DNA of 64,000 nt from Streptomyces sp. NBC_00569 (GTDB lineage Bacteria; Actinomycetota; Actinomycetes; Streptomycetales; Streptomycetaceae). The stretch is from positions 9,789,001 through 9,853,000 of the forward strand of contig NZ_CP107783.1 in assembly GCF_036345255.1 (NCBI RefSeq), in the 5' to 3' direction. How positions within the stretch are numbered: position 1 is the stretch's first letter; the number at the start of each line of letters is the position of its first letter. Positions 9,854-25,638 of the stretch are shown here, piece by piece. The notes beneath the pieces were generated by a model that was not told where the DNA came from, made no database searches, and was given only the letters and a program-made list of their open reading frames with translations. Made by a program: the position numbers and the translations under genes.

Positions 9854-10834
9854 ATGTCTGGAGCATGTTGTGCCCCCGGGGCCGGGGGCGACCGGGGGAT
9901 TCCGGAGCCGTCCGCCGTGCGGCCCCAGGCCCCGGAGCGCGACCGGGAGCAGGGGCTGCGCGCCATGCTGCGTATCCCTGGAGGGGCCTTCCTCATGGGA
10001 GGCGACGATGCTGACGCGTTTCCCGAGGACGGTGAAGGGCCGGTCCGGGAGGTGCGGCTGGCGCCGTTCCTGATCGACGCGACCACGGTCACCAACCGGC
10101 AGTTCGCGAAGTTCGTGCGCAGCAGCGGCTACCGGACCGACGCCGAGCACTACGGCTGGTCCTTCGTGTTCTACGCACTCGTCCACCCGGCGGCCCGGCA
10201 CGCGGTGCGCGACGGCGCGGTGGAGCAGGCGCCCTGGTGGCTCGCGGTCGAGGGGGCGTGCTGGAGTGCCCCCTACGGGCCGGGGTCGGCCTGGACCGAT
10301 CTGCCTAACCATCCCGTCGTCCATGTCTCCTGGCGTGACGCGTCCGCCTACGCGGCATGGGCGGGCAAGCGCCTGCCCACGGAGGCGGAGTGGGAGAGGG
10401 CGGCGCGCGGCGGTCTGGAGGGTGCCCGCTTCCCCTGGGGGGACGAGCTCCTGCCTCGGGGACAGCACCGCTGCAACATCTGGCAGGGGCGGTTCCCGCA
10501 GGACAACACGGGCGAGGACGGGTACCTGGGAACCGCGCCGGTGAAGAGTTACCGAGCCAACAACTACGGCCTGTACAACACTTCGGGCAACGTGTGGGAA
10601 TGGTGCTCCGACTGGTGGAGCACCACATGGCACACGGCCGGCCGCCCGGAGACCCGCCATGACCCGGCCGGACCTCCCGCGGGGGCGGCGAAGGTGATCC
10701 GCGGCGGCTCGTACTTGTGCCACGCGTCGTACTGCAATCGCTACCGGGTCGCCGCGCGCACCTCCAACACACCTGACAGCAGCACTGGGCACATGGGCTT
10801 CCGCTGCGCGGCGGATCTCCCCGGGACACGCTGA
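9854..10834 (+). CDS. Formylglycine-generating enzyme (sulfatase-modifying factor)
   Basis: A 326-residue FGE-sulfatase domain protein, cytoplasmic, that oxidises the Cys of a CxPxR motif in sulfatases to formylglycine using O2 and copper. The active-site pair lies in SYLCHASYCNRYRVAAR (Cys289 and Cys294), with the family motifs LPTEAEWERAARGG, NHPVVHVSW, GNVWEWCSDW and the end MGFRCA. It is very close in sequence pattern to the characterised S. coelicolor FGE. The ATG at 9854 follows GGAGGA; an in-frame GTG at 9842 precedes that site. A 9-bp inverted repeat (9798-9806 with 9833-9841) lies directly before the ribosome site. The substrate is evidently the sulfatase encoded 170 bases downstream. 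Confidence 0.93.
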   Translation: MSGACCAPGAGGDRGIPEPSAVRPQAPERDREQGLRAMLRIPGGAFLMGGDDADAFPEDGEGPVREVRLAPFLIDATTVTNRQFAKFVRSSGYRTDAEHYGWSFVFYALVHPAARHAVRDGAVEQAPWWLAVEGACWSAPYGPGSAWTDLPNHPVVHVSWRDASAYAAWAGKRLPTEAEWERAARGGLEGARFPWGDELLPRGQHRCNIWQGRFPQDNTGEDGYLGTAPVKSYRANNYGLYNTSGNVWEWCSDWWSTTWHTAGRPETRHDPAGPPAGAAKVIRGGSYLCHASYCNRYRVAARTSNTPDSSTGHMGFRCAADLPGTR

Positions 10835-10948
10835 GGTCTCGCCGGCGGCCGGGGCGTCGGTGGATGAACTGCCGCCCGCAGACGGACACATGGGCATGCG
10901 GCGACTGGTTGACATGGCAATGGAGGGAGGACAGAGTTGCCTCAGGCT

Positions 10949-10963
10949 ACTGGTAAGGCCAGT
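10949..10963. promoter_or_regulatory. GntR/FadR-like operator ACTGG-N5-CCAGT before the sulfatase
   Basis: Perfect 5-bp arms ACTGG and CCAGT around TAAGG, 41 bases upstream of the sulfatase start. The same arms and spacing occur at 22063-22077 in the amidase/dehydrogenase divergent promoter, next to a FadR-type GntR gene, and resemble the known E. coli FadR site pattern. The rest of the 170-base gap holds only the AAGGAG ribosome site at 10991-10996. Confidence 0.6.
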
Positions 10964-11004
10964 TAACTTGAGCGGTCTCACGCCCGCGCAAAGGAGCGTC
11001 CTCG

Positions 11005-13272
11005 ATGACCAACGCCTCTCCACATCAGTCGTCCACCAGCGGTACTTTCCAAGGCAAGATCGGTACGACCTACGACGAGTCGACGCCGTGGTGGCCGGAA
11101 CAGCAGGCGCTTACCGAGGACACGCCCAATGTCGTGGTCATCGTGCTCGACGACGTCGGCTTCTCCGACCTCGGCTGTTTCGGCTCGGACATCGAGACCC
11201 CGGCCATGGACGCCCTCGCCACCGGCGGTCTGCGCTACACCAACTTCCACACCACCACGCTGTGTTCTCCGACGCGGGCGTCCCTGCTGACCGGCCGGAA
11301 CCACCACTCCGTCGGCATGCGGATGCTGTCCAACTTCGACACCGGATTCCCCAGCGGCCGTGGACGGGTCACCAAGGCCGCCGCGATGCTGCCCGAGGTG
11401 CTGCGGGACAACGGCTTCAACACCATGGCCGTGGGCAAGTGGCACCTGGCGCCGATGGAGCAGACCACCGCGTCCGGGCCGTACACCCAATGGCCGCTGT
11501 CCCGCGGGTTCGAGCGCTACTACGGCTTCCTGGAGGCCGAGACCGACAGCTTCTATCCGGAACTGTTCTACGACAACCACGCCGTGGCTCCGCCGAAGAC
11601 CCCGGAAGAGGGCTATCACCTCAGTGAGGACCTGGTGGACCGGGCGATCGAATTCGTCACGGACCAGACGTCGGTCACTCCGGAGAAGCCCTTCTTCATG
11701 TACATGGCCTTCGGTGCGGCGCATGCCCCGCACCAGGCTCCGCAGGAGTACCTGGAGAAGTACCGGGGCCGGTTCGACCACGGCTGGGACGTCGAGCGCG
11801 CCACACGCCACGCCCGCCAGATCGAGCGGGGCATTCTGCCGCCCGGCACCGAACTGGCCCCGCGCAATCCCGGGGTCGAGCCCTTCGACGCACTGTCGGA
11901 CAACGAGAAGAAGCTGTCCGTACGCCTCCAGGAGGCCTACGCGGCGATGCTCGACCACACCGACCACCACATCGGCCGGTTCATGGAATTCCTGGAGCAG
12001 ATAGGGCAGATGGAGAACACCATCACCATCCTGCTCTCGGACAACGGGGCCAGCCAGGAAGGCGGGCAGAAGGGTTCCCTCAACCCGACCGCGTTCCAGA
12101 ACGGTCTCTCCGAGGACTTCGACGAGATGCTCGCGCGGATCGACGAGATCGGCACCACGCGCGCGCACGCCAACTATCCCTGGGGCTGGGCGCAGGCGGG
12201 CAACACGCCCTTCAAGCGCTACAAGCAGAACACCCACGAAGGCGGCGTCCGCTGCCCGCTCATTGTGCGGTGGCCCCGCGGGCTGCCCCGCACCGACGAG
12301 AACCGGCAGCAGTTCCACCACGTCAGCGACATCATGCCGACCCTCTTCGAACTGCTCGGTCTGCAGGCGCCCGAGGTCTACAACGGCATCCCGCAGATGC
12401 CGATCCACGGCACCAGTATGGCCTACACCTTCGACGCGCCGACCGCGCCGACGCGCAAGGAGGCCCAGTACTTCGAGATGTTCGGGCACCGCGCGATCTG
12501 GCACGACGGCTGGAAGGCGGTCTCCTTCCACCAGCGCGGATCGTCCTTCGACGACGACAAGTGGGAGCTCTACCACCACGACACCGACTTCTCGGAGTGC
12601 AACGACCTGGCGGAGGAACGGCCTGAGCAACTCCAGAAGATGGTTGCCCGCTTCTGGGTGGAAGCCGGGAAGTACGATGTGCTGCCGCTGGACGACAACG
12701 GATTCGCCCTCCGGGCGAAGATTCCGCGCCCCGGTTCCCCGCGCAGGCGCACCACTTTCACGTACTACCCGGACATGGCCCATCTGCCCGGCGCCGCGGT
12801 GCCACCGGTGATGAACCGCGCCCACCGCATCACCGCGTTCGTCGACCGGGCCACCGCGTCGGACGAGGGTGTCCTGGTGTCACTGGGCAACATCAGCAGC
12901 GGATACGTCCTGTACATCAAGGACAACAGGCTCGTCTACGAGTACAACTTCCTCGGCACCCGCTACACGGTGACATCGGAGGACGAACTCCCCATCGGAG
13001 CAGTCGAGTTGATTTTCGAGTTCATCAAGACCGGTGACGTGCAGGGTGTCGGTCACCTGTACGTGTCGGGAAAGCCGGCCGGGGAGACGGACATGCCGCA
13101 GGTCCTGCCGCACTTCTTCGGATGGCAGGGCCTCGACGTCGGCCGGGACACCCTGTCACCCTCCTCGCCCAGCTACGACGGCGAATTCGCGTTCACCGGA
13201 AAGCTCGAGAAGGTCGTCTTCGACGTCGCACCCGACGAAGAGGGCGCGGAGCCCTTCGAGCGCATCGACTGA
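11005..13272 (+). CDS. Arylsulfatase (type I, formylglycine-dependent)
   Basis: A 755-residue sulfatase of the alkaline phosphatase superfamily that hydrolyses sulfate esters. The modified-Cys motif CSPTR is at 87-91; the Ca-binding Asp pair is at 49-50 (VLDDVGFSDLG), with further active-site motifs GKWHL, LSDNGASQEGG and NTHEGGVRCP. There is no signal peptide, so it acts in the cytoplasm, consistent with oxidation by the adjacent cytoplasmic FGE. Length is greater than in Pseudomonas AtsA (about 530) because of a C-terminal beta-rich extension of roughly 200 residues, as in the long mycobacterial/actinobacterial form. The start has AAGGAG eight bases upstream. A 15-bp operator lies in its promoter. 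Confidence 0.93.
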   Translation: MTNASPHQSSTSGTFQGKIGTTYDESTPWWPEQQALTEDTPNVVVIVLDDVGFSDLGCFGSDIETPAMDALATGGLRYTNFHTTTLCSPTRASLLTGRNHHSVGMRMLSNFDTGFPSGRGRVTKAAAMLPEVLRDNGFNTMAVGKWHLAPMEQTTASGPYTQWPLSRGFERYYGFLEAETDSFYPELFYDNHAVAPPKTPEEGYHLSEDLVDRAIEFVTDQTSVTPEKPFFMYMAFGAAHAPHQAPQEYLEKYRGRFDHGWDVERATRHARQIERGILPPGTELAPRNPGVEPFDALSDNEKKLSVRLQEAYAAMLDHTDHHIGRFMEFLEQIGQMENTITILLSDNGASQEGGQKGSLNPTAFQNGLSEDFDEMLARIDEIGTTRAHANYPWGWAQAGNTPFKRYKQNTHEGGVRCPLIVRWPRGLPRTDENRQQFHHVSDIMPTLFELLGLQAPEVYNGIPQMPIHGTSMAYTFDAPTAPTRKEAQYFEMFGHRAIWHDGWKAVSFHQRGSSFDDDKWELYHHDTDFSECNDLAEERPEQLQKMVARFWVEAGKYDVLPLDDNGFALRAKIPRPGSPRRRTTFTYYPDMAHLPGAAVPPVMNRAHRITAFVDRATASDEGVLVSLGNISSGYVLYIKDNRLVYEYNFLGTRYTVTSEDELPIGAVELIFEFIKTGDVQGVGHLYVSGKPAGETDMPQVLPHFFGWQGLDVGRDTLSPSSPSYDGEFAFTGKLEKVVFDVAPDEEGAEPFERID

Positions 13273-13281
13273 CCCTTCTGA

Positions 13282-13363
13282 CTGCTCACCCTCCCCAGGA
13301 GGGTGAGCAGTTCGCAGCGGCATGAGAAGGCCCGCCACCGAATCGGTGGCGGGCCTTCTCATG
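13282..13363. terminator. Tandem hairpins, bidirectional terminator
   Basis: Two perfect stems follow the sulfatase: a 13-bp stem (13282-13294 with 13298-13310, loop CCA) and a 20-bp stem (13321-13340 with 13344-13363, loop AAT). They separate the + strand sulfatase from the convergent - strand SDR at 13372; the second stem is placed to end the long ABC operon. Confidence 0.85.
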
Positions 13364-13371
13364 CCGAACTG

Positions 13372-14169
13372 TCAGCTGGGCGGCGTGTAGCGTCCGTCGA
13401 TCGCCGTCCAGCCTCCGTCCACGAAAAGCTGGCTCCCCGTCACGAAGGACGACGCGTCCGACGCCAGATAGACGACGGCGCCGGCCAGTTCGTCGGGCCG
13501 GGACCAGCGGCCCAGGGCGCTCTTGGACGCGTAGGCCTCCGACCACTCCGGCACGGACCTGATCTGCGCGGTCAGCGGTGTGTCCACGACGCCCGGAGCG
13601 ACGGCGTTGACCCGCACGCCCGAGGGGCCCAGCTCGGCCGCCGCGGTGCGCAGCAGTTGGACGAGGCCGGCCTTCGTGGCCGCGTACACGCCCTGGCCCG
13701 GCTCGACGGCCACCGACCGGATCGAGCTGAAGCCGATGATGCTCCCGCGGCCGCGTTCGGCCATGCCGCGGCCGAACGCCCGCACGAGGTCGAAGGAGGC
13801 GCGCAGATTGAGCGACACGACTCGGTCGAACTCGTCCGTCGTGTAGTCGAGCAGATGCTTGCGCACGTTCGTCGCGGCGGTGAAGACGAGCACGTCGACG
13901 GCGCCGAGGTTCTCGGCGGCGCGCGCGACCGCCTCGCCGTCCAGTACGTCAAGGGCGTACGCCGACATCTCCTTGCCCATCGACGCCGTCTCCGTGGCGG
14001 CCTTCAGGTCGCGGTCGGCGCACACCACCGTGGCGCCGTGAGCGGCGAGCGCCAGGGCGCTCTCGCGGCCGATTCCGCTGCCGGCGCCCACCACGACGGC
14101 CTTGCGGCCGTCGAGCCGGAACAGACGGGAGTAGGTGTCCACCGCATCGGTGTGGTCGTTGTCCTGCAT
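13372..14169 (-). CDS. SDR-family NAD(P)-dependent oxidoreductase
   Basis: A 265-residue classical SDR. Nucleotide-binding GAGSGIG follows the KAVVV strand near residue 25; the catalytic Ser (GFSSIRS) and YAATK motif are intact, and the end QLFVDGGWTAID is typical. The ATG at 14169 was chosen; a GTG at 14178 would instead give the GTGA overlap with the aldehyde dehydrogenase that this operon uses elsewhere, so the start is uncertain by three codons. It is the last gene of the - strand operon running from 22041. With the aldehyde dehydrogenase next to it, an alcohol to aldehyde to acid oxidation is a reasonable guess for the pair. Confidence 0.85.
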   Translation of the reverse strand: MQDNDHTDAVDTYSRLFRLDGRKAVVVGAGSGIGRESALALAAHGATVVCADRDLKAATETASMGKEMSAYALDVLDGEAVARAAENLGAVDVLVFTAATNVRKHLLDYTTDEFDRVVSLNLRASFDLVRAFGRGMAERGRGSIIGFSSIRSVAVEPGQGVYAATKAGLVQLLRTAAAELGPSGVRVNAVAPGVVDTPLTAQIRSVPEWSEAYASKSALGRWSRPDELAGAVVYLASDASSFVTGSQLFVDGGWTAIDGRYTPPS

Positions 14170-14174
14170 GGTCC

Positions 14175-15668
14175 TCACGGCTTCTTCGTCGTCGGGCGGA
14201 TCACTGCCATACGGGTCACGGTGAGCTCTTCGATGGCGAACCTCGGGCCCTCCCGTCCGGCCCCGGAGTCCTTCACGCCGCCGTACGGCATGACGTCGGA
14301 GCGGAAGCCGGGAACTTCGTTGACGACCACTCCGCCCACCTCCAGGCGGTCGAGAGCGGCGAACGCGGTGTCGAGGGCGCTGGTGTAGACGCTCGCGTGC
14401 AGTCCGTAGCGCGAGTCGTTGACCAGGTCGAAGGCCTTCTCCAGATCGGGGACCGAGCGGATCGCGACGACAGGGCCGAAGATCTCCTCGTCCCAGAGGG
14501 GGAGGCCGCGGTCCACGTCGAGCAGCACGGCGGGCTCGATCACCCCGTCGGTCACCTTGCCCCCGGTCAGCAGCGAAGCGCCCGCCGTCACCGCCTCCTC
14601 CAGCCACGTGCACACCCGCTCGGTCGACCGCTCGTCGATGAGGGCCGAGACACGTGTCTGCGGATCGCGGGGATCGCCGACGGTCACCTCGGCCACCCGC
14701 TCCTTCACGCGGGCCACGAACTCCTCGCGCACGGCGTCCACCACGACGACCCGCTGCACACTGATGCAGGCCTGGCCCGACGCGTAGAACCCGCCGCGCA
14801 CCACCGCGTCGGCGGCGGCGTCTAGATCGGCGTCGGCGGCCACCACCAGGGCGGCGTTGGAACCGAGTTCGAGCAGCACCTTGGTGGGGGCCGCGTCCTT
14901 GGCGATCCGGTGGCCCACGGCTGCGGAGCCGGTGAAGGACACCGCTCCGATCCGGCGGTCGGTGGTCAGCGCGGAGCCGACCTCCGGACCGCCGGTCACC
15001 AGCTGCACCGCTGCCTGGGGCGCGCCGCAGGCATGCAGGGCCTCGCGGAGGAGGTGCACCAGCCACAGGGTGGCCAGCGGTGTCTGCGGCGCGGGCTTGG
15101 CGATGATCGGGCAGCCCGCGGCAAGGGCGGGCGCGATCTTGTGCGTGGCGAGCAGCAGCGGGTAGTTGAAGCCCGCGATGCCCACCACGACGCCGATCGG
15201 CTTGCGGGTCCAGAAGCCGAGCAGTCCCTCGCCCGACGGAAGCAAATCGAGCGGCACCGTCTCGCCGTGCAGCCGGGCCACTTCCTCGGCCGCGGTCAGC
15301 AGGGTCAGCAGGGTGCGGTCCACCTCGACGCGGCAGTCGACCAGCGGCTTGCCGGTCTCCAGGACCAGGAGCCGCTCGAAGTCGTCGCGGCGGGCGGTGA
15401 CCGCTTCGTGCGTCGCGAGGAGCGCCGCTCTGCGGGGGTGTGAGGGGAGTCGGCCGACCTGGTGGCGGACCGCGACCGCCGCGTCCAGGGCCTGACGCGC
15501 GAGGTCGGTGTCCCCGACCGGCGCGGAGGCGACGAGCGTCCCGTCGTAGGGGAAGCGGACGTCCTCGGCGGCGGGGGCCGCCACCCAGCTGTCGCCGATG
15601 GGAAGTCCCTCGGGGAACTCCTTCACCAACGGGTTTGCGCCGCTGGTGGGTTGGTCGTGCGTAGTCAC
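14175..15668 (-). CDS. Aldehyde dehydrogenase family protein
   Basis: A 497-residue NAD(P)-dependent aldehyde dehydrogenase. Motifs: the cofactor region FNYPLLL and AKPAPQTPLAT, the general base Glu in LLELGSNAAL, the catalytic Cys in SGQACISVQRV, and the C-terminal EIFGPVVAI and PYGGVKDSG motifs. Full length for the family. The GTG start at 15668 overlaps the preceding ATPase stop by GTGA. It belongs with the dipeptide-type transporter operon and so probably oxidises an aldehyde derived from the imported compound. Substrate specificity cannot be read from sequence. Confidence 0.88.
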   Translation of the reverse strand: MTTHDQPTSGANPLVKEFPEGLPIGDSWVAAPAAEDVRFPYDGTLVASAPVGDTDLARQALDAAVAVRHQVGRLPSHPRRAALLATHEAVTARRDDFERLLVLETGKPLVDCRVEVDRTLLTLLTAAEEVARLHGETVPLDLLPSGEGLLGFWTRKPIGVVVGIAGFNYPLLLATHKIAPALAAGCPIIAKPAPQTPLATLWLVHLLREALHACGAPQAAVQLVTGGPEVGSALTTDRRIGAVSFTGSAAVGHRIAKDAAPTKVLLELGSNAALVVAADADLDAAADAVVRGGFYASGQACISVQRVVVVDAVREEFVARVKERVAEVTVGDPRDPQTRVSALIDERSTERVCTWLEEAVTAGASLLTGGKVTDGVIEPAVLLDVDRGLPLWDEEIFGPVVAIRSVPDLEKAFDLVNDSRYGLHASVYTSALDTAFAALDRLEVGGVVVNEVPGFRSDVMPYGGVKDSGAGREGPRFAIEELTVTRMAVIRPTTKKP

Positions 15669-16546
15669 GGTCGGTACTCCCGGTTGAGGTCGGCCGCCGT
15701 CACTCCGGACAGTGCCTTGCCCAGCGTCGGCACGGCGGCGATCAGCCTGCGTGTGTAGGGGTGTTGGGGATCCTCGTAGACCTCCTGCGTGGACCCGGTC
15801 TCCACGATCTGCCCGTCGTGCATGACCGCGACCCGGTCGCACACATGACGCACCACGGACAGGTCGTGGGAGACGAAGACCAGCGTCAGGGACAGCTCGT
15901 CGACGAGGTCCGCGACGAGGTTGAGCACCTGGGCCCGTACGGACACGTCGAGGGCGCTCACGGGCTCGTCGGCCACGATGATCTTCGGGCGGGGGGCGAG
16001 GGCGCGGGCGATCGAGATGCGCTGGCGCTGGCCGCCGGAGAACTGGTGCGGATACCGGTTCGCCGCGTCTGCCCGCAGGCCGACCGCCTCGAGCAGTTCG
16101 GCCACCCGCTCCCGGCGGTTCCCGTGCCCCTGCGCGACGAGCGGCTCGGCCACGATGTCGCCCACGCGCATGCGTGGGTCGAGGGCGCTCATCGGGTCCT
16201 GGAAGACGACCTGGAGTCGTTCGCGGACGAACCGGAGCTGTCTCTCCCGGAGCCTGGTGATGTCCCGGCCGTCGATCTCGACGCTTCCGCCGGTGGGACG
16301 GTCGAGCCCGGCCAGGATCCGCAGCAGGGTCGACTTGCCGCAGCCCGACTCGCCCACGATGCCGAAGCGTTGACCCTGCGGGACGGTGAAGCTGACGCCG
16401 CGCAGGGCGTGCACCGGTGGGCTCGGGTGGCGCAGCGAGGTGCGGGGGCGCCGGTAGTCGCGGGTGACGTCGCGGACACTGATGGCGTCCACGGGGCCGG
16501 ACGGGGAACCGGGGGAGAGGGGGGCGTCGGTCAGTTGCTCAGCCAA
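15665..16546 (-). CDS. Oligopeptide/dipeptide ABC transporter ATP-binding protein (DppF-like)
   Basis: A 293-residue ABC ATPase. Walker A GESGCGKST, signature FSGGQRQRISIARALA, Walker B IIVADEPVSALD and the H-loop VFVSHDLSV are all intact; the C terminus (HPYTRRLIAAVP) is the oligopeptide/dipeptide C-terminal extension. The start was set at TTG 16546: it has AGGAGG at six bases and overlaps the upstream ATPase by eight bases, whereas longer in-frame starts lie deep inside that gene. With its neighbour it forms the heterodimeric ATPase of the importer. Confidence 0.9.
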   Translation of the reverse strand: MAEQLTDAPLSPGSPSGPVDAISVRDVTRDYRRPRTSLRHPSPPVHALRGVSFTVPQGQRFGIVGESGCGKSTLLRILAGLDRPTGGSVEIDGRDITRLRERQLRFVRERLQVVFQDPMSALDPRMRVGDIVAEPLVAQGHGNRRERVAELLEAVGLRADAANRYPHQFSGGQRQRISIARALAPRPKIIVADEPVSALDVSVRAQVLNLVADLVDELSLTLVFVSHDLSVVRHVCDRVAVMHDGQIVETGSTQEVYEDPQHPYTRRLIAAVPTLGKALSGVTAADLNREYRP

Positions 16547-17579
16547 GGCCGGCCTCCTGGTTCGTGGGTACGCCGGTCGTATGTGTGTCGCTCTCGGACA
16601 CCGGGTGGAAGCAGGCGTAGCCGGAGTCCGGCCCGCTCGCGACCCAGTCCGGCCTGGTGGCGCACACGTCGGTGGCCTGGGCGCACCTGTTCCTGAACAC
16701 GCATCCGGCGGGGAACTGTCCCGCCGACGGAACCGAGCCGCCGATCGTGGCAAGCCGCCCGCGGTCGTCGACCACGGTCAGGTCCGATGCACCGATCAGG
16801 CCCTGGGTGTACCGGTGTCGGGGGCGGGTGAACACCTCGCGGACCGGTCCCGACTCGACGACCCGCCCGCCGTACATGACCATGACGCGTTCGCAGACGG
16901 TGGCCACCACGGCCAGGTCGTGGGTGATGAAGAGCATGGCCGACCTGCGGTCCTGCACGCCGCGCACGATCAGGTCGAGGACCCGGGCCTGCACGGTGAC
17001 GTCGAGTGCGGTGGTGGGTTCGTCGCAGACCAGGAGCGCGGGGTCGTTCGCAAGGGCGATGGCCAGCACTACGCGCTGGCGCTGGCCGCCGGAGAGCTGG
17101 TGCGGATAGGCCCGCGCGGCAGCCGCGGGGTCGGGCAGCCCCACCTGGGCGAGGAGCTCCACGGCGGCGTTCCGGGCGGAGGCGCGGTCGGGCCTGGTCC
17201 GGTGGATCAGCAGCACCTCGGCGATCTGCCGTCCGACCCGCATCGTGGGGTTCAGCGCGGTCATGGGCTCCTGGAAGACCATGGCGATCTCCTTGCCCCG
17301 GATCCGGGACATCCGCGCCTCGTCGGCGCCGACCAGGTCGTGGTCGACTCCGGCGAGCCGCACCGATCCCGTGGCCCGCAGCCCTTCGGGGAGCAGGCCC
17401 ATGACGCTCAGTGAGGTCAGCGACTTGCCGGACCCCGACTCACCGATCAGGCCGACGCGTTCGCCGGCCCGGATGGTGAAGTCGACGCTGTCGATGAGCT
17501 TGCGGCCGCCCACCGTCACGTCCAGATCGCGTACGGCCAGGACGTCCCGGACATCGTCGGATACGGGTGCCGCGGTCAT
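16539..17579 (-). CDS. Oligopeptide/dipeptide ABC transporter ATP-binding protein (DppD-like)
   Basis: A 346-residue ABC ATPase with Walker A GESGSGKS, signature LSGGQRQRVVLAIALA, Walker B LLVCDEPTTALD and H-loop LFITHDLAVVA. The C-terminal extension has the Cys pattern of dipeptide transporter ATPases (CVFRNRCAQATDVC and a later Cys), known in the family as an iron-sulfur-type cysteine cluster. ATGA overlap with the permease gene upstream shows tight coupling. Confidence 0.92.
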   Translation of the reverse strand: MTAAPVSDDVRDVLAVRDLDVTVGGRKLIDSVDFTIRAGERVGLIGESGSGKSLTSLSVMGLLPEGLRATGSVRLAGVDHDLVGADEARMSRIRGKEIAMVFQEPMTALNPTMRVGRQIAEVLLIHRTRPDRASARNAAVELLAQVGLPDPAAAARAYPHQLSGGQRQRVVLAIALANDPALLVCDEPTTALDVTVQARVLDLIVRGVQDRRSAMLFITHDLAVVATVCERVMVMYGGRVVESGPVREVFTRPRHRYTQGLIGASDLTVVDDRGRLATIGGSVPSAGQFPAGCVFRNRCAQATDVCATRPDWVASGPDSGYACFHPVSESDTHTTGVPTNQEAGLG

Positions 17580-18454
17580 CGGCGGTCCTCCAGCTTGGGG
17601 TCGAAACGGTCGCGCAGGCCGTCACCGAGCAGATTGAATCCGAGCACCGCCACCGCGATCGCCACGCCCGGAAATACGGCGAGTCGGGGAGCGGACGCCA
17701 GCAGCTCCTGGCTCTCCTGCAGCATCCGGCCCCAGGACGGAGTCGGGGGCGGGGTGCCGAAGCCCAGGAAGGACAGCGCGGCCTCGGCGAGTACGGCGAT
17801 GGCGAAACCGACCGACGCCTGCACGATGACGAGACTGCTGACGTTGGGCAGGACGTGCCGCAGTCCGATCGCGAACGGTCCACGGCCCGCCGCACGCGCG
17901 GCGGTGACGTACTCGGTCTGCATGACCTGCAGCGTGCCGCCGCGGATCAGCCGGGCGAACGTGGGGATGGACGCGATGCCGATGGCGATCATCGCGACCA
18001 GCGTGCCGGCGCCGTACACGGCGGCGAACATGATGGCCAGCAGGAGCGCGGGGAAGGCGAGAAGCAGGTCGTTCCCGCGCATCAGCAGCTCGCCGAACCA
18101 GCGGGGCGCCATCCCGGCGACGATGCCGAGGGGCACGCCGACCACGGCGGCGACCCCCACGGCCACGAAGCCGACGAACAGCGTGGTGCGCGAACCCACC
18201 AGGATCTGGCTGAACACATCGCGGCCGAACTTGTCCGTGCCGAACCAGTACTCCGGCGACGGCTTCTGCAGCCGCACCGAGGCATCGACCAGGGTCGGGT
18301 CGTGAGGGGTCCACACGAAGGACAGCAGCGCCATGCCGATCACGAGCGTGACGATGAGGCCGCCCACCAGGAGGCTGCCCGTGATCGGGCGGCGCCGCCG
18401 CCGAGGCTCGGGCGCGGCTGAGGCGACGGCGGTCTGCGGGTCCAGAACACTCAT
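17576..18454 (-). CDS. ABC transporter permease (DppC-like)
   Basis: A 292-residue inner-membrane permease of the dipeptide/oligopeptide/nickel type. A basic N terminus (PRRRRRPITGS) leads into the first membrane segment; the periplasmic loop begins with HDPTLVDAS, and the EAA-type loop GIASIPTFARLIRGG is visible. Six membrane segments are expected. It starts at ATG 18454, overlapping the DppB-like stop by ATGA. Confidence 0.9.
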   Translation of the reverse strand: MSVLDPQTAVASAAPEPRRRRRPITGSLLVGGLIVTLVIGMALLSFVWTPHDPTLVDASVRLQKPSPEYWFGTDKFGRDVFSQILVGSRTTLFVGFVAVGVAAVVGVPLGIVAGMAPRWFGELLMRGNDLLLAFPALLLAIMFAAVYGAGTLVAMIAIGIASIPTFARLIRGGTLQVMQTEYVTAARAAGRGPFAIGLRHVLPNVSSLVIVQASVGFAIAVLAEAALSFLGFGTPPPTPSWGRMLQESQELLASAPRLAVFPGVAIAVAVLGFNLLGDGLRDRFDPKLEDRR

Positions 18455-19401
18455 GACGCACCCACCCTGAGTCGCGGGTCGATCAACAGATAGACCATGT
18501 CCACCAGGAAGTTCACGAGCAGCACCGCGACGGCGATGATCATGACCACGTCCTGCACCATGGTGAGGTCCCGGCCGGCGACGCTGTCCAGCAGCAGACT
18601 TCCGAGCCCGGGTATGACGAAGACCCGCTCGATGACGACGGAGCCGACCAGCAGCGTGGCGAGCTGCAACGCCAGGACGGTGACCACGGGCACCGATGCG
18701 TTGCGAAGACCGTGCCGCAGCAGCGCCTTCGTAGGGCGAAGTCCCTTGGCGCGAGCAGTGCGCAGATAGTCCTCGCGCAGGACGTCGAGCACGGCGCTGC
18801 GCACATAGCGGGTGAGTACGGCCGCCTGCACGATGCCGAGCGACAGCGCGGGCATGACCAGCTGTTTGAGGAAGAGGACCGGATCCTGCACCGGTGGCGT
18901 CCAGCCGTTCGCCGGCAGCCATCCGAGCCCCACCGCGAACACGGTGATCATGAGGATGCCCGCGAGGAAGGCAGGGACGGCGACGCCGATCTGGGAAACG
19001 GCGGAGAGCATGAGCCCGGACGGCTTGCGGTGCCGCACGGCCATGATCGTGCCCATGGGGATCGCCAGGATGCACGCGATCACCATCCCGGTGCCGACGA
19101 GCCACAAGGTGACCAGGAGGCGGTCGGCGAGCTGCGGGCCGATCGCCGTGTGGGAGATGTAGGAGGAGCCCGGGTCGAAGGTCACCAGGCCGTGGACCCA
19201 GCTGAAGTACTGGGCCACCAGCGGCCGGTCGAGCTCGAATTCCGTACGCAGTTGTGCCACCGCCGAGTCCGACGCGCTGACGCCGAGGGCGACGCGGGCC
19301 GGATCCCCCGGCAGCACCGCCATGAACGCGAACACCACGACGGAGCACACGACGAGGCTGGCCAGGAGGACAGCGATCCGCCGCACGAGACGGACGATCA
19401 T
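18451..19401 (-). CDS. ABC transporter permease (DppB-like)
   Basis: A 316-residue permease, partner of the DppC-like protein. The opening VRLVRRIAVLLASLVVCSVV, the motif LPGDPARVALG and the cytoplasmic coupling loop YLRTARAKGLRPTKALLRHGLRNA are family hallmarks. The start is embedded in a short ORF (19398-19442) that overlaps it by ATGA, so translation probably arrives from that ORF and, before it, from the binding-protein gene. Confidence 0.9.
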   Translation of the reverse strand: MIVRLVRRIAVLLASLVVCSVVVFAFMAVLPGDPARVALGVSASDSAVAQLRTEFELDRPLVAQYFSWVHGLVTFDPGSSYISHTAIGPQLADRLLVTLWLVGTGMVIACILAIPMGTIMAVRHRKPSGLMLSAVSQIGVAVPAFLAGILMITVFAVGLGWLPANGWTPPVQDPVLFLKQLVMPALSLGIVQAAVLTRYVRSAVLDVLREDYLRTARAKGLRPTKALLRHGLRNASVPVVTVLALQLATLLVGSVVIERVFVIPGLGSLLLDSVAGRDLTMVQDVVMIIAVAVLLVNFLVDMVYLLIDPRLRVGAS

Positions 19402-19442
19402 GGGATGAGGCCGCCTTTCATGATGATGAGGTCGCCTTTCAT
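19398..19442 (-). CDS. 14-codon coupling ORF between binding protein and permease
   Basis: On the - strand an ATG at 19442 overlaps the binding-protein TGA (ATGA), reads MKGDLIIMKGGLIP and stops with a TGA that overlaps the ATG of the DppB-like gene (ATGA). The peptide is a near-perfect duplication (MKGDLII / MKGGLIP) produced by a tandem DNA repeat of about 21 bases. Each copy carries an AAAGGCG stretch that could pair with 16S rRNA. The simplest reading is a duplicated ribosome site that became an in-phase bridge for translational coupling. Whether the peptide matters is unknown. Confidence 0.5.
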   Translation of the reverse strand: MKGDLIIMKGGLIP

Positions 19443-20962
19443 GACCGGCCCAGGCCGGTGAGGTCCAGTGATTCGGAGATGGAGTTCTTGGGCAGGCCGG
19501 TGATGTCCGCGTCCGCCACCATCAGGTTCGGCAGCAGGAACAGCCAGTCGGCCGCGGCGTCCTTCGACAGCAGCCGGGCAGCCGCCCTCATGGACGCGAC
19601 CTGCTGCTCCTGGGTGCCCTGGTCCGCCTTCTTCAACAGGGCGCGGAAAGCAGGGCTGTCGTAGCGCGTGTAGTACGTCTTGGATCCGAACACCGCCTGC
19701 ATGTCCCGGGGTTCGGCATGGGAGATGATGGACATGTCGTAGTCCGCGTTCTTGAACACGGTGGTCAGCCAGGCGGCGGGGAACTCCAGCTGGTCGAGCT
19801 TCACCTTGAATCCGGCCTGTTCCAACTGGCTCTTCACGACAGTGCCGCACGCCGTGGCATAGGGAAGCGTAGGAATCCGCAGCCGCAGCGTACGGCCGGC
19901 CTCACCGGACTCCTTGAGCAGCTTCTCGGCCTTGTCGCGGTCGTACGGATACAGGTCCGTGAGGTCCTGGTACCAGGGGTCGGTCGACGGGACCATGCTG
20001 CCGATGAGCTTGCCGCGGCCTGCCCAGCAGGTGTCCAGCAGGGCCTTGTGGTCGATCGCGTAGCGGACCGCCCGGCGGACCTTGGGATTGCGCAGCGGGC
20101 CCGAGCCGTTGTTGAAGGAGAGGAGCACCTCGCCGTTGGTCGAGCCTTCGATGACCTTGTACTTCGGGTTGTTCTCGAACCGGTACAGGGAATCCGGGGA
20201 CTGCATCGCGCCGATCACGTTGATGGTGTTGGTGAGCAGCGCGTTGTTGAGGGCCGTCGGATCCTTGAAGTACTTGAGGGCGACCGTCTTGAAGTGCGGC
20301 GTCCGGCCCCAGTAGTCGGTTCTGCGGGCCAGGGTGATCGAGTCGCCGCGGTTCCACCGCTTCACCACGTACGGTCCGGTGCCCACCGGCTCGGTGGCCA
20401 GCTTCTTCACGCCGGTCCGGCTGAACATGGCGCCGACGCGGGTGGTCATCCGGTACAGCCAGTCGTTGCTCGGTGTCTTGAGGGTGACCCTCAGTTCGTC
20501 GGAGGCCACCACCCGCACCGTGTCGACGACACTCATCTGGGACTTCTGCGCCACCGTCCAGCGGGACGCGACGCGCTCGATGGAGAACTTGGCGTCCTCG
20601 GCGGTGAACCGGGCGCCATTGCTGAACGTGGCGTCCTTCACCAGATGGAACGTGTACGTCCTGCGGTCCTTCGACAGCTTCCACGACGTGGCCAGAGCGG
20701 GCCGGATCTTCCCGGCCTGGTCCAGCTTCACCAGGTTCTCGTAGACGTTGTAGAGCAGCGCCTGCGGAATGGCGGCTCCCTCGGTCTTGGTGAAGTCGAG
20801 GTTCGCCGGCTCGGCGGTGAGGCCGACGCTCAAGGTGGTCTCGGGGTCGCCGGCGCTGCCCCCGGCCGCCAGGGAGCCGGCCGAACAGGCGGTCAGCAGC
20901 AGGCAGGTGAGCGTGGCCGCGGCCGCCCCGACATGCCGCATCAGCGGTTTGTTGCGCCACAT
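19439..20962 (-). CDS. ABC transporter substrate-binding lipoprotein (SBP_bac_5, dipeptide type)
   Basis: A 507-residue family 5 solute-binding protein. The signal peptide ends with LLLTAC, lipidated Cys at residue 26; the mature protein has the TTLSVGLTAEPANLDFTKTE opening and the family motif LKLSKDRRTYTFHLVKDATF-like segment (here WKLSKDRRTYTFHL), NGARFTAEDAKFS. The ATG at 20962 has GGAGG eight bases upstream. It anchors substrate capture outside the membrane for the permease and ATPase pairs downstream. Family members bind peptides, nickel, sugars or opines, so the ligand stays open. Confidence 0.9.
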   Translation of the reverse strand: MWRNKPLMRHVGAAAATLTCLLLTACSAGSLAAGGSAGDPETTLSVGLTAEPANLDFTKTEGAAIPQALLYNVYENLVKLDQAGKIRPALATSWKLSKDRRTYTFHLVKDATFSNGARFTAEDAKFSIERVASRWTVAQKSQMSVVDTVRVVASDELRVTLKTPSNDWLYRMTTRVGAMFSRTGVKKLATEPVGTGPYVVKRWNRGDSITLARRTDYWGRTPHFKTVALKYFKDPTALNNALLTNTINVIGAMQSPDSLYRFENNPKYKVIEGSTNGEVLLSFNNGSGPLRNPKVRRAVRYAIDHKALLDTCWAGRGKLIGSMVPSTDPWYQDLTDLYPYDRDKAEKLLKESGEAGRTLRLRIPTLPYATACGTVVKSQLEQAGFKVKLDQLEFPAAWLTTVFKNADYDMSIISHAEPRDMQAVFGSKTYYTRYDSPAFRALLKKADQGTQEQQVASMRAAARLLSKDAAADWLFLLPNLMVADADITGLPKNSISESLDLTGLGRS

Positions 20963-20967
20963 ACGCG

Positions 20968-22041
20968 CTACCTCCGGCTTTCCATCGCGTGCAGCACGGC
21001 GGCAGAGACGTCCGCAGTCGTCGCGTTGCCGCCGAGGTCGGCTGTGTGGTTCCGGGCATCGCGCAGGACGTCCGCCACCGCGTCGCGGATGCGTACGGCC
21101 GCGTCGGTGTGTCCGAGGTCGTCGAGCAGCAGCGCACCAGAGAGCAGGCAGGCCACCGGATTCGCCACGCCCTTCCCGGCGATGTCGGGCGCGGAGCCGT
21201 GCACTGGTTCGTAGATGCCTGGCACGTCCGCGCCGGGAAGGACGTTGGCGCTGGGCGCCATTCCCATGCCGCCCGCGAGCACTGCGGCGAGATCGGACAG
21301 GATGTCGCCGAACAGGTTGCTCGTGAGCAGCACGTCGAGGGAGCGCGGAGCCTGGATCATCCGGGCGGCCATGGCGTCGACCAGCACCGTCTCCAGCTCG
21401 ACCTCGGGGTACTGCGAGCCGATCTCGCGCACTACGCGGTCCCACAGCGGATAGCCGTGGCGCATCGCGTTGGACTTGGTCACCAGGCACAGGCGGCCCG
21501 ATCGCCGCCCGGCCAGGGCGAAGGCCTGGTGCGCCGCCCGTTCGATGGCGCGGCGGGAGTGCACGGCGACCTCGATGCCGAGATCGTGGCCGCTGCCCGC
21601 GTGCGCCACCCCGCCCGCGCCGACGTACTCGCCCTCGGTGTTCTCCCGGACGATCACCAGGTCCACACCGTCGGTGTCGCGCACCTTGGTGGGAACGCCG
21701 GGGAACGCGCGCACCGGGCGGATGTTCACGGCGAGGTCGAGTTGCTGCCGCAGACCGATGATCAGGCCCCAGATCAGCTCGTGCTCGGGCACGTCGGGCC
21801 GTCCGACGGCGCCGAAGAGCACGGCGTCAGCCTGTTTGACGAGGTCGGCCGCGTCGGCCGGCATCGCCGCGCCCTCCCGGAGGAACCGTTCGCCGCCCCA
21901 GTCGAGTTCGGTCACGTCCAGCCGGTGACCGTCGGCCTCCAGCGCGGCCCGGAGCGTGGGCACGGTCGCCGCGACGACCTCGGGGCCGATTCCGTCGCCC
22001 GGAATGACGGCGAGCCGAACCGTCTTGGTGTCTCGCGTCAT
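20968..22041 (-). CDS. Isocitrate/isopropylmalate-type dehydrogenase (tartrate dehydrogenase-like)
   Basis: A 357-residue NAD-dependent beta-decarboxylating dehydrogenase. Motifs: AVIPGDGIGPEVV, NIRPVRAFPGV, the substrate Arg/Tyr region VIVRENTEGEYVG, the metal-binding signature LLTSNLFGDILSDLAA, and EPVHGSAPDIAGKG in the cofactor site. NIRPVR and ENTEGEY recall tartrate/D-malate dehydrogenases (TtuC/DmlA) as well as LeuB. Being first in a transporter operon instead of a leu operon, it more likely acts on a 2- or 3-substituted malate-like acid from the imported substrate. Start ATG 22041 has GAAAGGG upstream; a start three codons earlier is possible. Only five bases separate it from the binding-protein gene. 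Confidence 0.85.
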   Translation of the reverse strand: MTRDTKTVRLAVIPGDGIGPEVVAATVPTLRAALEADGHRLDVTELDWGGERFLREGAAMPADAADLVKQADAVLFGAVGRPDVPEHELIWGLIIGLRQQLDLAVNIRPVRAFPGVPTKVRDTDGVDLVIVRENTEGEYVGAGGVAHAGSGHDLGIEVAVHSRRAIERAAHQAFALAGRRSGRLCLVTKSNAMRHGYPLWDRVVREIGSQYPEVELETVLVDAMAARMIQAPRSLDVLLTSNLFGDILSDLAAVLAGGMGMAPSANVLPGADVPGIYEPVHGSAPDIAGKGVANPVACLLSGALLLDDLGHTDAAVRIRDAVADVLRDARNHTADLGGNATTADVSAAVLHAMESRR

Positions 22042-22062
22042 GCACGCCACCCTTTCGCTGCA

Positions 22063-22077
22063 ACTGGCCTGACCAGT
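22063..22077. promoter_or_regulatory. GntR/FadR-like operator ACTGG-N5-CCAGT in divergent promoter
   Basis: Perfect arms ACTGG and CCAGT around CCTGA, inside AACTGGCCTGACCAGTA, which differs little from the E. coli FadR consensus (AACTGGTC-N-GACC-N-GTT). It lies 22 bases upstream of the dehydrogenase start and about 90 bases before the amidase start, and the identical arms occur before the sulfatase (10949). The likely binder is the GntR protein at 23596. Confidence 0.65.
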
Positions 22078-22165
22078 AAGCTCACTTGCCAGGTACCGTG
22101 ACGACTGAAACTGTCGTTGTCAAGGGTTCGCCTACCTCAGGCATCGCGAGTGAAGGAGAGTGCGG

Positions 22166-23599
22166 GTGCCCATCGAACAGAGCCTGGCCGCCATGTCGGC
22201 CGTCGAGATGGTGGCCGGATTCGCAGACCGCACGTTGTCGCCGGTCGACGTCCACGAGGCCGTCCAGTCGGTGATCGAGGCACGTGAGGGCGTGCTCAAC
22301 GCGTTCTGGGTGCGGGACCCGGACGAGTCGCGCAAGGCGGCTCAGGCCAGCGAGGCCCGATGGTCGGCGGGCGAACCGCTCGGACCCATCGACGGCGTGC
22401 CCGTGACGCTGAAGGAGAACGTCGCGCGTGCGGGCGTGCCCATGTCCTCGGGCAACGCGGGGGCCGAACCGGTCGTCCCCGACGCGGACGCGCCCATCAC
22501 CGCCCGGGTGCTCGAATCCGGCGGAGTGGTCCTCGGGTCGACCGTCATGCCCGACTGGGGCATGCTCTCCTCGGGCGTCTCCAGCCGGCACGGCATCACC
22601 CGCAGCCCCTGGAACTCCGGCTGGACGACGGGCGGTTCCAGCTCCGGCGCGGGCGCCGCGGCCGCCGGGGGATACGGGCCGCTGCACGTCGGAACCGACA
22701 TCGGCGGATCGATCCGGCTGCCGGGCACCTGGCTGGGACTTGCCACACTCAAACCCAGCTACGGGCGGATCCCGCTGGACGCCCCGTACCAGGGGCGCTG
22801 CGCCGGCCCCCTGACGCGCACCGTGGCGGACGCCGCCCTGCTCATGCGGGTCCTGAGCCAACCGGATCCCCGGGACTGGTCGAGCCTGCCGCCGCAGGAC
22901 ATCGACTGGTCGGCCCTGGACGTCGAGGTCCGTGGACTGCGCGTGGGGGTGCAGATGGACGCCGGGTGCGGGGAGCCGGCCGACGCGGAGACCGTCGCCG
23001 CGGTGCGGCGTGCCGCCGAGGTCTTCGAAGCGGCGGGAGCCGTCGTGGAGCCGGTCGAGCCGTTCATGACCCAGGATCTCCTGGACGACCTGGATCTGTT
23101 CTGGCGCGTGCGGTCCTGGAACGACTTCCGTGCCCTGACGCCCGAAGCCCGGCAGCGTGTCCTGCCCTACATCGTCCAGTGGTGCCAGGAAGGCGCTGAC
23201 GTGCCGGGCACGAAGGTGCTCCGGTGCTACCAGCAGGTCATGCGCATCCAGGAGCAGACCGTGGCGGCGACGCTCCCGTACGATCTGGTGCTCTCGCCGA
23301 CCGCTCCGGTGGCGGCGTTCCCCGCTGATCAGCCGATGCCGTTCATGGGGGACGGGAAGACGATGTACCACATCGGATTCACCGCGCCGTACAACATGTC
23401 GGGGCAGCCTGCCGCGACCGTCAACTGCGGCTTCACGGTGGACCGCCGGCCCATTGGAGTGCAGATCTCGGGTCGCCGCTTCGACGATCTCGGGGTCCTG
23501 AGGGCGGCGGCATGGTACGAACGGAACCGTCCTGCCGGGGCGGTTCCGCACTGGCCGGACAGCGTCCCCGGGACGCCCACGGGGGAGAGGACGACATGA
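22166..23599 (+). CDS. Amidase (amidase signature family)
   Basis: A 477-residue serine amidohydrolase. The catalytic triad is visible: Lys in VTLKENVAR, the cis-Ser in WTTGGSSSGAGAA and the nucleophile Ser in GTDIGGSIRLPG. The C-terminal part (SPTAPVAAF, PYNMSGQPAATVNCGF, PIGVQISG) is complete. GTG 22166 was chosen because AAGGAG is seven bases away, whereas GTG 22160 sits too close. It hydrolyses a carboxamide or amide bond; the linked importer suggests an amide-containing substrate. Divergent from the ABC operon and coupled by ATGA to the GntR gene. Confidence 0.92.
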   Translation: MPIEQSLAAMSAVEMVAGFADRTLSPVDVHEAVQSVIEAREGVLNAFWVRDPDESRKAAQASEARWSAGEPLGPIDGVPVTLKENVARAGVPMSSGNAGAEPVVPDADAPITARVLESGGVVLGSTVMPDWGMLSSGVSSRHGITRSPWNSGWTTGGSSSGAGAAAAGGYGPLHVGTDIGGSIRLPGTWLGLATLKPSYGRIPLDAPYQGRCAGPLTRTVADAALLMRVLSQPDPRDWSSLPPQDIDWSALDVEVRGLRVGVQMDAGCGEPADAETVAAVRRAAEVFEAAGAVVEPVEPFMTQDLLDDLDLFWRVRSWNDFRALTPEARQRVLPYIVQWCQEGADVPGTKVLRCYQQVMRIQEQTVAATLPYDLVLSPTAPVAAFPADQPMPFMGDGKTMYHIGFTAPYNMSGQPAATVNCGFTVDRRPIGVQISGRRFDDLGVLRAAAWYERNRPAGAVPHWPDSVPGTPTGERTT

Positions 23600-24390
23600 A
23601 CGACGCTCGAGGGGAAACAGCCGTGAGCAGCGGGGCACAGTTCCGGCAGGTGGCGCCGGTACGGCTCTACCAGCGCATCGTGGAGCAGATCGAGCAGGCG
23701 ATCACGCGAGGTGACCTGAAGCCGGGTCAACGGCTGCCGAGCGAGCGGGAGCTGGTGACACAGTTCGGGGCGAGCCGGCCCACCGTGCGGGAGGCCTTGC
23801 GTGTACTGGAGAGCAACGGGCTCGTCCGCTCCCGCCCGGGCGACCCGAACGGCCCGGAGATCCTGCCGTTCTCGCCGGCCGGCCTGACCAAGGAGATGAC
23901 CCGGCTCGTCCAGTTCGACAACATGTCGATGGCCGAGTTGATCTCGTTCCGCATGATGCTCGACGGCTCGGCGAGCCAGCTGGCGGCCCGGCTGCGGTCC
24001 GAGGAGGAGCTGTCCGCCATGGAGCGGACGCTCGCCGTCATGTCGGACGCGATCGAGAAAGGCTACGAGGAGTTCAGCAAGGCCGATGTCGCCTTCCACG
24101 AGGCGGTGGCCGTGGCCAGCCGCAACTCCCTCATCGAGGTGTGCAATCACGTCGTCAGGGGCGCGGTCCTCTCTCTGATCTCGGACAAGGTCGCCCACGC
24201 GACCAACAGCACGGAGCTCATGCGGGAGTCGCTCCATCACCATCAGGAGGTACTGGAGGCGATCCGCGTGAGAGACGGCCTGGCGGCGGCACGCCTCTCA
24301 CGGCGCTCGCTCTACGACTACTACGCCGGCTACGTCCCCGAGGACGAACAGGGGCTGCTGATCGCGCTCGTGGACGACGAAGACGCCTGA
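23596..24390 (+). CDS. GntR-family regulator, FadR subfamily
   Basis: A 264-residue regulator: winged helix about residues 25-90 (GDLKPGQRLPSERELVTQFG, ASRPTVREALRVLESNGLV) and an FCD helical ligand domain thereafter (MLDGSASQLAARL, VAFHEAVAVASRN). Metal-ligand His residues of FCD domains are present. The ATG overlaps the amidase stop (ATGA), so it is made with the amidase. The FadR-like inverted repeat in the divergent promoter at 22063 and another before the sulfatase at 10949 are its probable targets, making it a pathway-specific repressor responding to a carboxylate. A strong terminator follows. Confidence 0.88.
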   Translation: MNDARGETAVSSGAQFRQVAPVRLYQRIVEQIEQAITRGDLKPGQRLPSERELVTQFGASRPTVREALRVLESNGLVRSRPGDPNGPEILPFSPAGLTKEMTRLVQFDNMSMAELISFRMMLDGSASQLAARLRSEEELSAMERTLAVMSDAIEKGYEEFSKADVAFHEAVAVASRNSLIEVCNHVVRGAVLSLISDKVAHATNSTELMRESLHHHQEVLEAIRVRDGLAAARLSRRSLYDYYAGYVPEDEQGLLIALVDDEDA

Positions 24391-24405
24391 GGCCGCCTTC
24401 GTCCC

Positions 24406-24449
24406 GCCCGCGCCCCCGGAGATGTCTCTCCGGGGGCGCGGGCGTTTTT
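24406..24449 (+). terminator. Strong rho-independent terminator after gntR
   Basis: Perfect 17-bp stem (24406-24422 with 24427-24443, beginning GCCCGCGCCCCCGGAGA), TGTC loop, followed by a run of five T from 24445. It also lies in front of the convergent AsnC gene stop (24482). Confidence 0.92.
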
Positions 24450-24481
24450 GTCTTCGGATATGAGATGCCGCCACGCCGTGC

Positions 24482-25074: not shown

Positions 25075-25638
25075 ATGCCAGCCGCCACAGAGACACCAAC
25101 ACGCCCTGTCCCCTCCGTCGTTGAGACACCACGCACACACCAACTGGGCGCCGTGCTGCGCATCGACGTCGTCGCCATGCCCTTGGCGATCACCCGGGTC
25201 GCGTCGATCATGGCGCAGCGCCAGTTCGACGTGGTGACCATGGACGTCGCCGCGCCCGTCGACGGGCTGCGCAGGATCACCGTCGAGGTCGACACGACGG
25301 ACGAGATCAGGCTGGGCAGGCTCGTCAAGTTCCTGAACCGGTCGCCCGACGTCGTCAAGGTCGTACACCTCTCCGACGAAAGGTCGCACACCCGGCGGGA
25401 GGTGTTCGTCACGGTCACCTTCCCCGAGGGCCGACTTGCCGATGCCGTCGCCATCGCGCAGGCGTTCTCCGCCGAGATCGTGGACGCCGACCGCACGCGC
25501 TGCACCGTGTTCGCCGCCGCCGAGCCCGCTCGGGTCGACGCTCTCGTCAAAGCCCTCTCCGGCTTCACGGTTCGGGACCTCGTGATGGCGTCGCCGCTAC
25601 GGATCGCGCGTGTATCCCGAAAGGGACACCAGTGGTGA
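25075..25638 (+). CDS. ACT-domain protein resembling acetolactate synthase small subunit
   Basis: A 187-residue protein with an N-terminal ACT domain (AVLRIDVVAMPLAITRVASI, then FDVVTMDVAAPVDGLRRITV) and a second similar region (FVTVTFPEGRLADAVAIAQA), like IlvN/IlvH regulatory subunits, but with no acetolactate synthase catalytic gene nearby. Start is uncertain: the ATG at 25075 is used, a GTG at 25039 is the alternative. It overlaps the E1alpha gene by GTGA. Inference: a branched-chain amino acid sensor for the dehydrogenase complex or its pathway. Confidence 0.7.
   Translation: MPAATETPTRPVPSVVETPRTHQLGAVLRIDVVAMPLAITRVASIMAQRQFDVVTMDVAAPVDGLRRITVEVDTTDEIRLGRLVKFLNRSPDVVKVVHLSDERSHTRREVFVTVTFPEGRLADAVAIAQAFSAEIVDADRTRCTVFAAAEPARVDALVKALSGFTVRDLVMASPLRIARVSRKGHQW

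Follow-up and report, generated by a model that had tools for sequence, protein, structure and literature searches.

A block of genes at positions 9854-24390 of a window of 64,000 nt from Streptomyces sp. NBC_00569 (NZ_CP107783.1, 9,789,001-9,853,000; all coordinates are positions within this window) very likely forms a single regulon, and its gene content and relatives favor reading it as a GntR-controlled catabolic regulon for amides of the pantothenate/pantetheine type. In the proposed route, a Dpp-type ATP-binding cassette (ABC) importer would take up the amide and, in this lineage, a formylglycine (FGly) sulfatase matured by FGE would remove a cap from it. An amidase would cleave the pantoyl amide to pantoate and beta-alanine (or a beta-alanyl amine), a short-chain dehydrogenase (SDR) would oxidize the pantoate 4-hydroxyl to an aldehyde, an aldehyde dehydrogenase (ALDH) would convert this aldehyde to 3,3-dimethylmalate, and an Iso_dh-family enzyme (IDH) would turn 3,3-dimethylmalate into 2-oxoisovalerate by oxidative decarboxylation, for entry into valine catabolism. 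The order of import, amide hydrolysis and alcohol oxidation had been suggested by an earlier, sequence-only reading of this DNA; it fits the present results, which narrow the imported class to what is probably pantothenate/pantetheine.

FGE and the sulfatase are encoded rightward and end at 13272. Facing them, from 22050 to 13372, is a leftward operon encoding IDH, a substrate-binding protein (SBP), DppBC, OppDF, ALDH, and SDR. The amidase and GntR genes overlap by ATGA and run rightward from 22160, divergent from IDH; the IDH and amidase starts flank a common gap of 109 bp, and the FGE-sulfatase gap is 170 bp. A Pfam profile search of the window proteins placed every gene where the sequence-only reading had put it. 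The window holds all four enzyme classes of pantothenate breakdown, namely an amidohydrolase, an alcohol dehydrogenase, an aldehyde dehydrogenase and a decarboxylating malate-type dehydrogenase. The amidase scored 654.8 bits against NCBIfam NF005450 (PRK07042 amidase), above the cut-off of 458, and its Lys85, Ser160, and Ser184 are invariant in alignment A1. This gene content was computed directly, as were the common site, the conservation of the block as a unit, the accessory status of the sulfatase, and the make-up of related loci.

The palindromic pattern ACTGG-N5-CCAGT occurs exactly at 10949, in the FGE-sulfatase gap, and at 22063, in the IDH/amidase gap. It is not a common word, since it is found at 19 places in the 10.3-Mb host genome, compared with 57 for a backward-read control pattern. 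The one-mismatch motif count across the window (3 vs. 1.65 expected) is not significant alone, so the case for the site rests on its place and conservation. In each of the 11 other Streptomyces regions compared, as in the window itself, the site lies 5′ of the amidase. It precedes FGE or the sulfatase in 8/8 regions where the script found both genes (5 exact, 3 with one mismatch). An exact site stands between FGE and the sulfatase in the window, G507, G544, G635, and G096; G055, G645, and G497 have in its stead a site with one mismatch, 69-81 bp ahead of FGE. The sulfatase unit therefore follows the site in two architectures. In related loci, the core carries an exact site in Humibacillus, Segeticoccus, Rathayibacter, two Cryobacterium, and Allokutzneria, and one with a single mismatch in Paeniglutamicibacter. 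Among amidase relatives (the best 80 of 123 loci), a GntR-type site was found in nine of the 12 loci with a GntR match and in none of the 68 without. An amidase-independent search, made with the IDH protein in 394 class-level genomes, yielded four others; each has an exact site beside the IDH start and importer genes adjoining IDH. From this co-occurrence we infer that the regulator, in which both GntR and FCD domains are present, would bind the ACTGGTAAGGCCAGT/ACTGGCCTGACCAGT-type palindrome and would control the genes behind it. Our findings support the single regulon of the sequence-only reading, in that a predicted operator-like site is conserved and common to the sulfatase upstream region and the IDH/amidase gap.

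Site copies in eight Burkholderiales loci, which are without GntR and have a different middle, were judged by eye to be coincidences within the SBP gene. Inspection of five of the 17 exact host-genome copies outside the block revealed no clear further regulon member. G055 has a second FCD GntR (L031:10909-11778), which is 55% identical to the cluster GntR and diverges from FGE across the one-mismatch site. A second unit, comprising SDR matches, a polysaccharide deacetylase, an FCD GntR, an amidase, and a major facilitator superfamily (MFS) transporter, lies to the right of GntR in L041 (~12159-18312) and at the corresponding place in G635 and G624 (S. sabulosicollis/S. iranensis-type strains); in it, an exact ACTGGTCGGACCAGT stands directly before the MFS gene (L041:18298).

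The block is conserved as a unit. In a sample of 392 Streptomyces genomes, which overlaps samples searched earlier and whose members are not independent, the amidase has an ortholog in 10 and the sulfatase in 7 (two candidates scored per genome for the sulfatase, and few per genome in the amidase and IDH searches). All seven genomes with the sulfatase ortholog are among the 10 with the amidase, on the same contig and 11-13 kb apart. A strong DNA match to the window in G055 begins at 9823 and ends near 24380-24582, and the match in G645 and G497 covers 9823-24383, with a gap in the G497 sulfatase. These three stretches contain no other match of at least 150 bases (shorter ones having been dropped) except for a GntR-like stretch in G055 and one match within the ATPase genes. 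The DNA match extends further right in G096, G507, G544, and G635. The same block, order and sites are found in many genomes. A search for the same neighborhood in other actinomycetes, proposed by the sequence-only reading, revealed that the core recurs, rearranged, across genera, with adjacency exceeding chance. An Actinoallomurus carries an amidase at 88% and a sulfatase at 87% identity, both on contigs of 11,932,932 bases that are taken to be one, which suggests that the set may have been transferred. In these comparisons, tblastn matches covering <40% of the query (cross-genus loci) or <30% (Streptomyces regions and class-level genomes) were dropped, along with overlapping weaker matches; the script's open-frame picks are mechanical, some being in the wrong frame.

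Evidence for the substrate comes from the match of enzyme classes and, independently, from the company that the core keeps in related loci. Beside GntR-amidase in G1019 (L196 and L197) are genes for a CoA-acylating methylmalonate-semialdehyde dehydrogenase (MMSDH; 681.5 bits against a cut-off of 448.5) and for a class III aminotransferase, whose nearest PDB chain is taurine:2-oxoglutarate aminotransferase, a pair that released beta-alanine would require; the opposite arm across the site encodes IDH, SBP, DppB, DppC, OppD, OppF, an S58 peptidase, ALDH, and SDR. This peptidase is 71% identical to one inside the Humibacillus operon, which scored 342 bits with ThnT, 142 with the next solved family, and 25 with beta-peptidyl aminopeptidase. 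ThnT is also the best PDB match of the S58 peptidases of G839 and G692 (221 and 247 bits, respectively). The likeness to ThnT is strong, but because few S58 families are in the PDB, it is not proof of substrate. ThnT is described as breaking a pantetheinyl group down to cysteamine (PMC6097109) and is named a pantetheine hydrolase in PMC13062082. AptA and MMSDH are encoded upstream of Dpp and the amidase in 5/5 Achromobacter loci (among the best 80 of 123), where they may be older neighbors since a glycine-cleavage-like gene, recognized by eye, is also near; a second AptA (62%) is encoded elsewhere in three of the five genomes. In Rathayibacter (L050), a class III aminotransferase is the sole candidate gene for the beta-alanine half, and in the window no genes for that half adjoin the block. 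A further hint toward the pathway is the leuB copy next to the Ensifer amidase. A pantetheine hydrolase, the amidase, the pantoate enzymes, and the beta-alanine enzymes would together make up one coherent route. Genes for M81 (MlrC-type) metallopeptidases accompany Dpp and the amidase in L057, L061, L063, L070, L114, and L086 (Achromobacter, Bradyrhizobium).

Several observations weigh against assigning the block to pantothenate/pantetheine. The window lacks the ThnT-like gene, which occurs in 2/80 amidase loci. SDR, ALDH, and IDH are encoded together in just 8/80 amidase loci (IDH in 12, a permease in 49), which may point to an amidase family wider than the pantothenate pathway. IDH is missing or gapped in three Streptomyces regions (G624, G490, and L040). 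No such amidase lies within 30 kb in G839 and G766 (the G692 contig is cut), and all three have an M20 hydrolase. The sodium/solute symporters (SSS) beside the amidases of Halomonas, Vreelandella, and Salinicola have panF as their best-named family, at 113, 108, and 101 bits; with scores far under the cut-off of 328, they are a hint only and were set aside as proof of substrate. As for the regulator, there is no exact site in L043 (rearranged, with an amidase match starting at residue 62), Ensifer L056, three Brevibacterium loci, or L102, and L065 has one mismatch. Other FCD regulators may share TGGT-N-ACCA-like sites, and the second amidase/MFS unit, which carries the same site in some strains, is not explained by pantothenate. 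Finally, IDH falls below the cut-offs for tartrate dehydrogenase (TIGR02089, 382.2/470.4) and LeuB (TIGR00169, 263.4/353.2; NF002898, 352.8/393), and comparison of its pocket residues with those of tartrate dehydrogenase and LeuB gave no separation between alkylmalate and tartrate.

A rival reading is that the same regulon instead serves a polyhydroxy-acid amide of the threonate/erythronate type, which would be split and its terminal alcohol oxidized to a tartrate-like diacid, with the Iso_dh enzyme acting as a tartrate dehydrogenase. The closest PDB entry to IDH is indeed tartrate dehydrogenase 3flk, the equivalent enzyme of Variovorax L064 exceeds the tartrate dehydrogenase cut-off (556/470), and Variovorax L067, where SDR is missing, encodes a HIBADH-like protein that also matches L-threonate dehydrogenase, below cut-off. 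Enzymes of the LeuB type nevertheless occupy this place in Cryobacterium L052 (NF002898, 449.9/393) and Ensifer, whose Iso_dh 3′ of the amidase is LeuB above cut-off (446.6/353) and has a second, 97% identical leuB elsewhere in the genome. A tartrate route also leaves the ThnT-like hydrolases and beta-alanine-type genes of related loci unexplained, and we consider it unlikely.

The function of the sulfatase is a separate question. Its closest PDB relative is P. aeruginosa arylsulfatase (PAS; 4cxk/1hdh, 287 bits), aligned over residues 40-549. It has the C-x-P-x-R motif of FGly (S1) sulfatases, an adjacent FGE and, by eye in the 1hdh alignment, a catalytic residue set that looks complete. The N-termini, also judged by eye, agree with the sequence-only reading that neither the sulfatase nor the amidase has an export signal. 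FGE is 87-88% identical in G055, G096, G497, G645, G544, and G635. That it is indispensable was rejected, as there is a 400-base gap in FGE of G507 although the sulfatase is intact there; PF03781 is matched seven times in the host genome, once more strongly than by the FGE of the block. The host genome also contains, at G000:C1:1606112-1608089, a sulfatase gene and an FGE-domain gene whose matches are split or incomplete; one of these has an internal TGA.

In a genome-wide search at a threshold of 1e-60, which covered the genomes of 17 of 18 selected loci, the sulfatase had matches in six, two Streptomyces at 89% and four others at 37-47%; none was found, at the locus or in the genome, in two Cryobacterium, Paeniglutamicibacter, and Allokutzneria, where the core is present. 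No sulfatase lies in the stretches compared from the four class-level genomes with the core, one of them just 7.5 kb long, and the flank of L044 is too short to exclude one beside the core. Among Streptomyces, the sulfatase is gapped in G497 and G490 (in the latter, the contig start truncates both it and FGE), and both genes are absent from the G624 and G411 stretches. As the core exists without it in other genera and in some Streptomyces, the sulfatase is, on this comparative evidence, accessory, yet tied to the operator-like site in Streptomyces. Sulfate removal as a core step, the role put forward for it in the sequence-only reading, is not supported in that form. That reading had also reasoned that ABC/amidase clusters without the sulfatase would speak against a common regulon; such clusters do exist outside Streptomyces, but the Streptomyces sulfatase shares the site.

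These absences, together with the facing orientation and the inverted repeats between the units, would suit a separate sulfur-scavenging FGE-sulfatase unit co-transferred beside the amide regulon, with no common pathway. This is improbable given that the site precedes FGE or the sulfatase in both architectures, and that no sulfatase ortholog was found outside the block in the 392 genomes at the threshold used. We likewise doubt, though sequence cannot separate the two activities here, that the 'sulfatase' is a phosphate-ester hydrolase acting on a phosphopantetheinyl substrate such as a 4′-phosphodiester from carrier-protein digestion. The arylsulfatase of P. aeruginosa, its closest solved relative, is promiscuous toward phosphate diesters, phosphopantetheinyl peptides would be a fitting cargo for a peptide-type importer, and our literature search, made largely outside subscription papers, gave no sulfated pantothenate. 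Given the regulon, chances are about even that the sulfatase removes a cap from the same imported molecule. More tentative is the corollary that a natural 4′-capped (sulfated or phosphodiester-linked) pantothenate or pantetheine is imported by Streptomyces, uncapped by an FGly hydrolase, and used as food, at loci that would encode the pantothenase, pantoate 4-dehydrogenase, and the dehydropantoate and dimethylmalate dehydrogenases. A chance neighborhood of unrelated catabolic genes, to which only the facing orientation and the gene losses would point, is scarcely credible in view of a block, order and sites conserved in many genomes and a core rearranged across genera.

Features of the block and its right flank (positions within the window)
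Feature	Position	Strand	Basis
FGE (sulfatase maturase), 326 aa	9854..10834	+	PF03781 279.8 bits
Operator-like site ACTGGTAAGGCCAGT, 5′ of sulfatase	10949..10963	.	exact palindromic pattern
PAS-like FGly sulfatase, 755 aa, CSPTR from residue 87	11005..13272	+	PF00884 222.4 bits
Inverted repeats between facing units, possible two-way terminator	13283-13309, 13320-13364	.	read from sequence
SDR, proposed pantoate 4-dehydrogenase	13372..14169	-	adh_short_C2; putative function
ALDH, proposed 4-dehydropantoate dehydrogenase	14175..15668	-	PF00171 438.8 bits; start read from sequence; putative function
ABC ATPase, OppF-like, start uncertain	15665..16523	-	PF00005, oligo_HPY
ABC ATPase, OppD-like	16539..17579	-	PF00005, oligo_HPY
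Permease, DppC-like, start approximate	17576..18457	-	PF00528 (BPD_transp_1)
Permease, DppB-like	18451..19401	-	PF00528, PF19300
Family-5 substrate-binding lipoprotein (SBP)	19439..20962	-	PF00496 (SBP_bac_5) 266.3 bits; N-terminus with LTAC
Iso_dh-family oxidative decarboxylase (IDH), proposed 3,3-dimethylmalate dehydrogenase	20968..22050	-	PF00180 322.9 bits
Operator-like site ACTGGCCTGACCAGT, divergent IDH/amidase gap	22063..22077	.	exact palindromic pattern
Amidase-signature hydrolase, proposed pantothenase	22160..23599	+	PF01425 262.7 bits
GntR-FCD regulator, proposed binder of the site, overlaps amidase stop	23596..24390	+	PF00392, PF07729
Terminator-like hairpin with T run, 3′ of GntR	24405..24444	+	hairpin scan
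E1 alpha/beta of 2-oxoacid dehydrogenase	25632..27757	+	adjoins Lrp gene 24482-25033

The inverted repeats at 13283-13364 were not listed by the terminator-hairpin scan of the window, and that scan alone proves nothing because it found two sites compared with 3.8 in shuffles. To the right of the block, 24482-29093 contains Lrp, E1 alpha/beta, and further 2-oxoacid dehydrogenase genes, which adjoin it only in some strains. E1 alpha/beta is a possible sink for 2-oxoisovalerate outside the conserved unit; the E1 genes were rejected as members since they lie beside the cluster only in G507, G544, and G635 of 11 Streptomyces regions. They also adjoin it in L041 and L042, the latter and G635 being apparently one genome. 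Just left of the block, a fragment on the minus strand (9573-9731) looks by eye like a TnpB-type C-terminal remnant, for which Pfam gave no match. Farther right (46738-53909), GntR, epimerase-like, isomerase-like, MFS, and kinase-like genes resemble, from their sequence starts, a four-carbon acid sugar pathway.

Pantothenate breakdown proceeds through pantothenase, pantoate 4-dehydrogenase, dehydropantoate dehydrogenase, and 3,3-dimethylmalate dehydrogenase, by chemistry dating from the 1960s; Goodhue and Snell reportedly described bacterial pantothenate degradation and pantothenase in 1966. A search of titles and abstract starts turned up no gene for pantothenase or for any subsequent step, and a 2023 paper describes the identity of the pantothenase protein as still unknown (PMC10393543). 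The sequence-only reading knew of no characterized pathway made up of exactly these genes; the underlying chemistry turns out to be old, and the titles and abstract starts searched pointed to no gene assignment for it. If our reading is right, the locus and its relatives give candidate genes for four steps long known only as activities, and offer a regulator with a candidate site as well as a path by which soil bacteria could bring pantetheine into central metabolism. Should the sulfatase act on the imported molecule, a capped vitamin derivative is predicted of which the literature search found no description.

The enzyme classes of the block match each of the four steps of classical pantothenate degradation, from which the block differs by its binding-protein importer, GntR-linked site, and sulfatase. 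Its Dpp-type importer also contrasts with the symporters of gammaproteobacterial amidase loci. Of all PDB chains, ThnT is the best match to the S58 peptidases that lie within or next to related cores; its own role, however, is biosynthetic, in the thienamycin pathway, and the window lacks the S58 gene. The sulfatase resembles PAS (1hdh) in its catalytic half and C-x-P-x-R motif, and differs by ~200 further C-terminal residues and a cluster-bound site. IDH shares the Iso_dh family with tartrate dehydrogenase (3flk) and 3-isopropylmalate dehydrogenase, while scoring under both curated cut-offs. The regulator has the GntR and FCD domains of FadR-type FCD GntR regulators, whose sites the block palindrome presumably resembles, and differs from them in gene neighborhood and likely effector.

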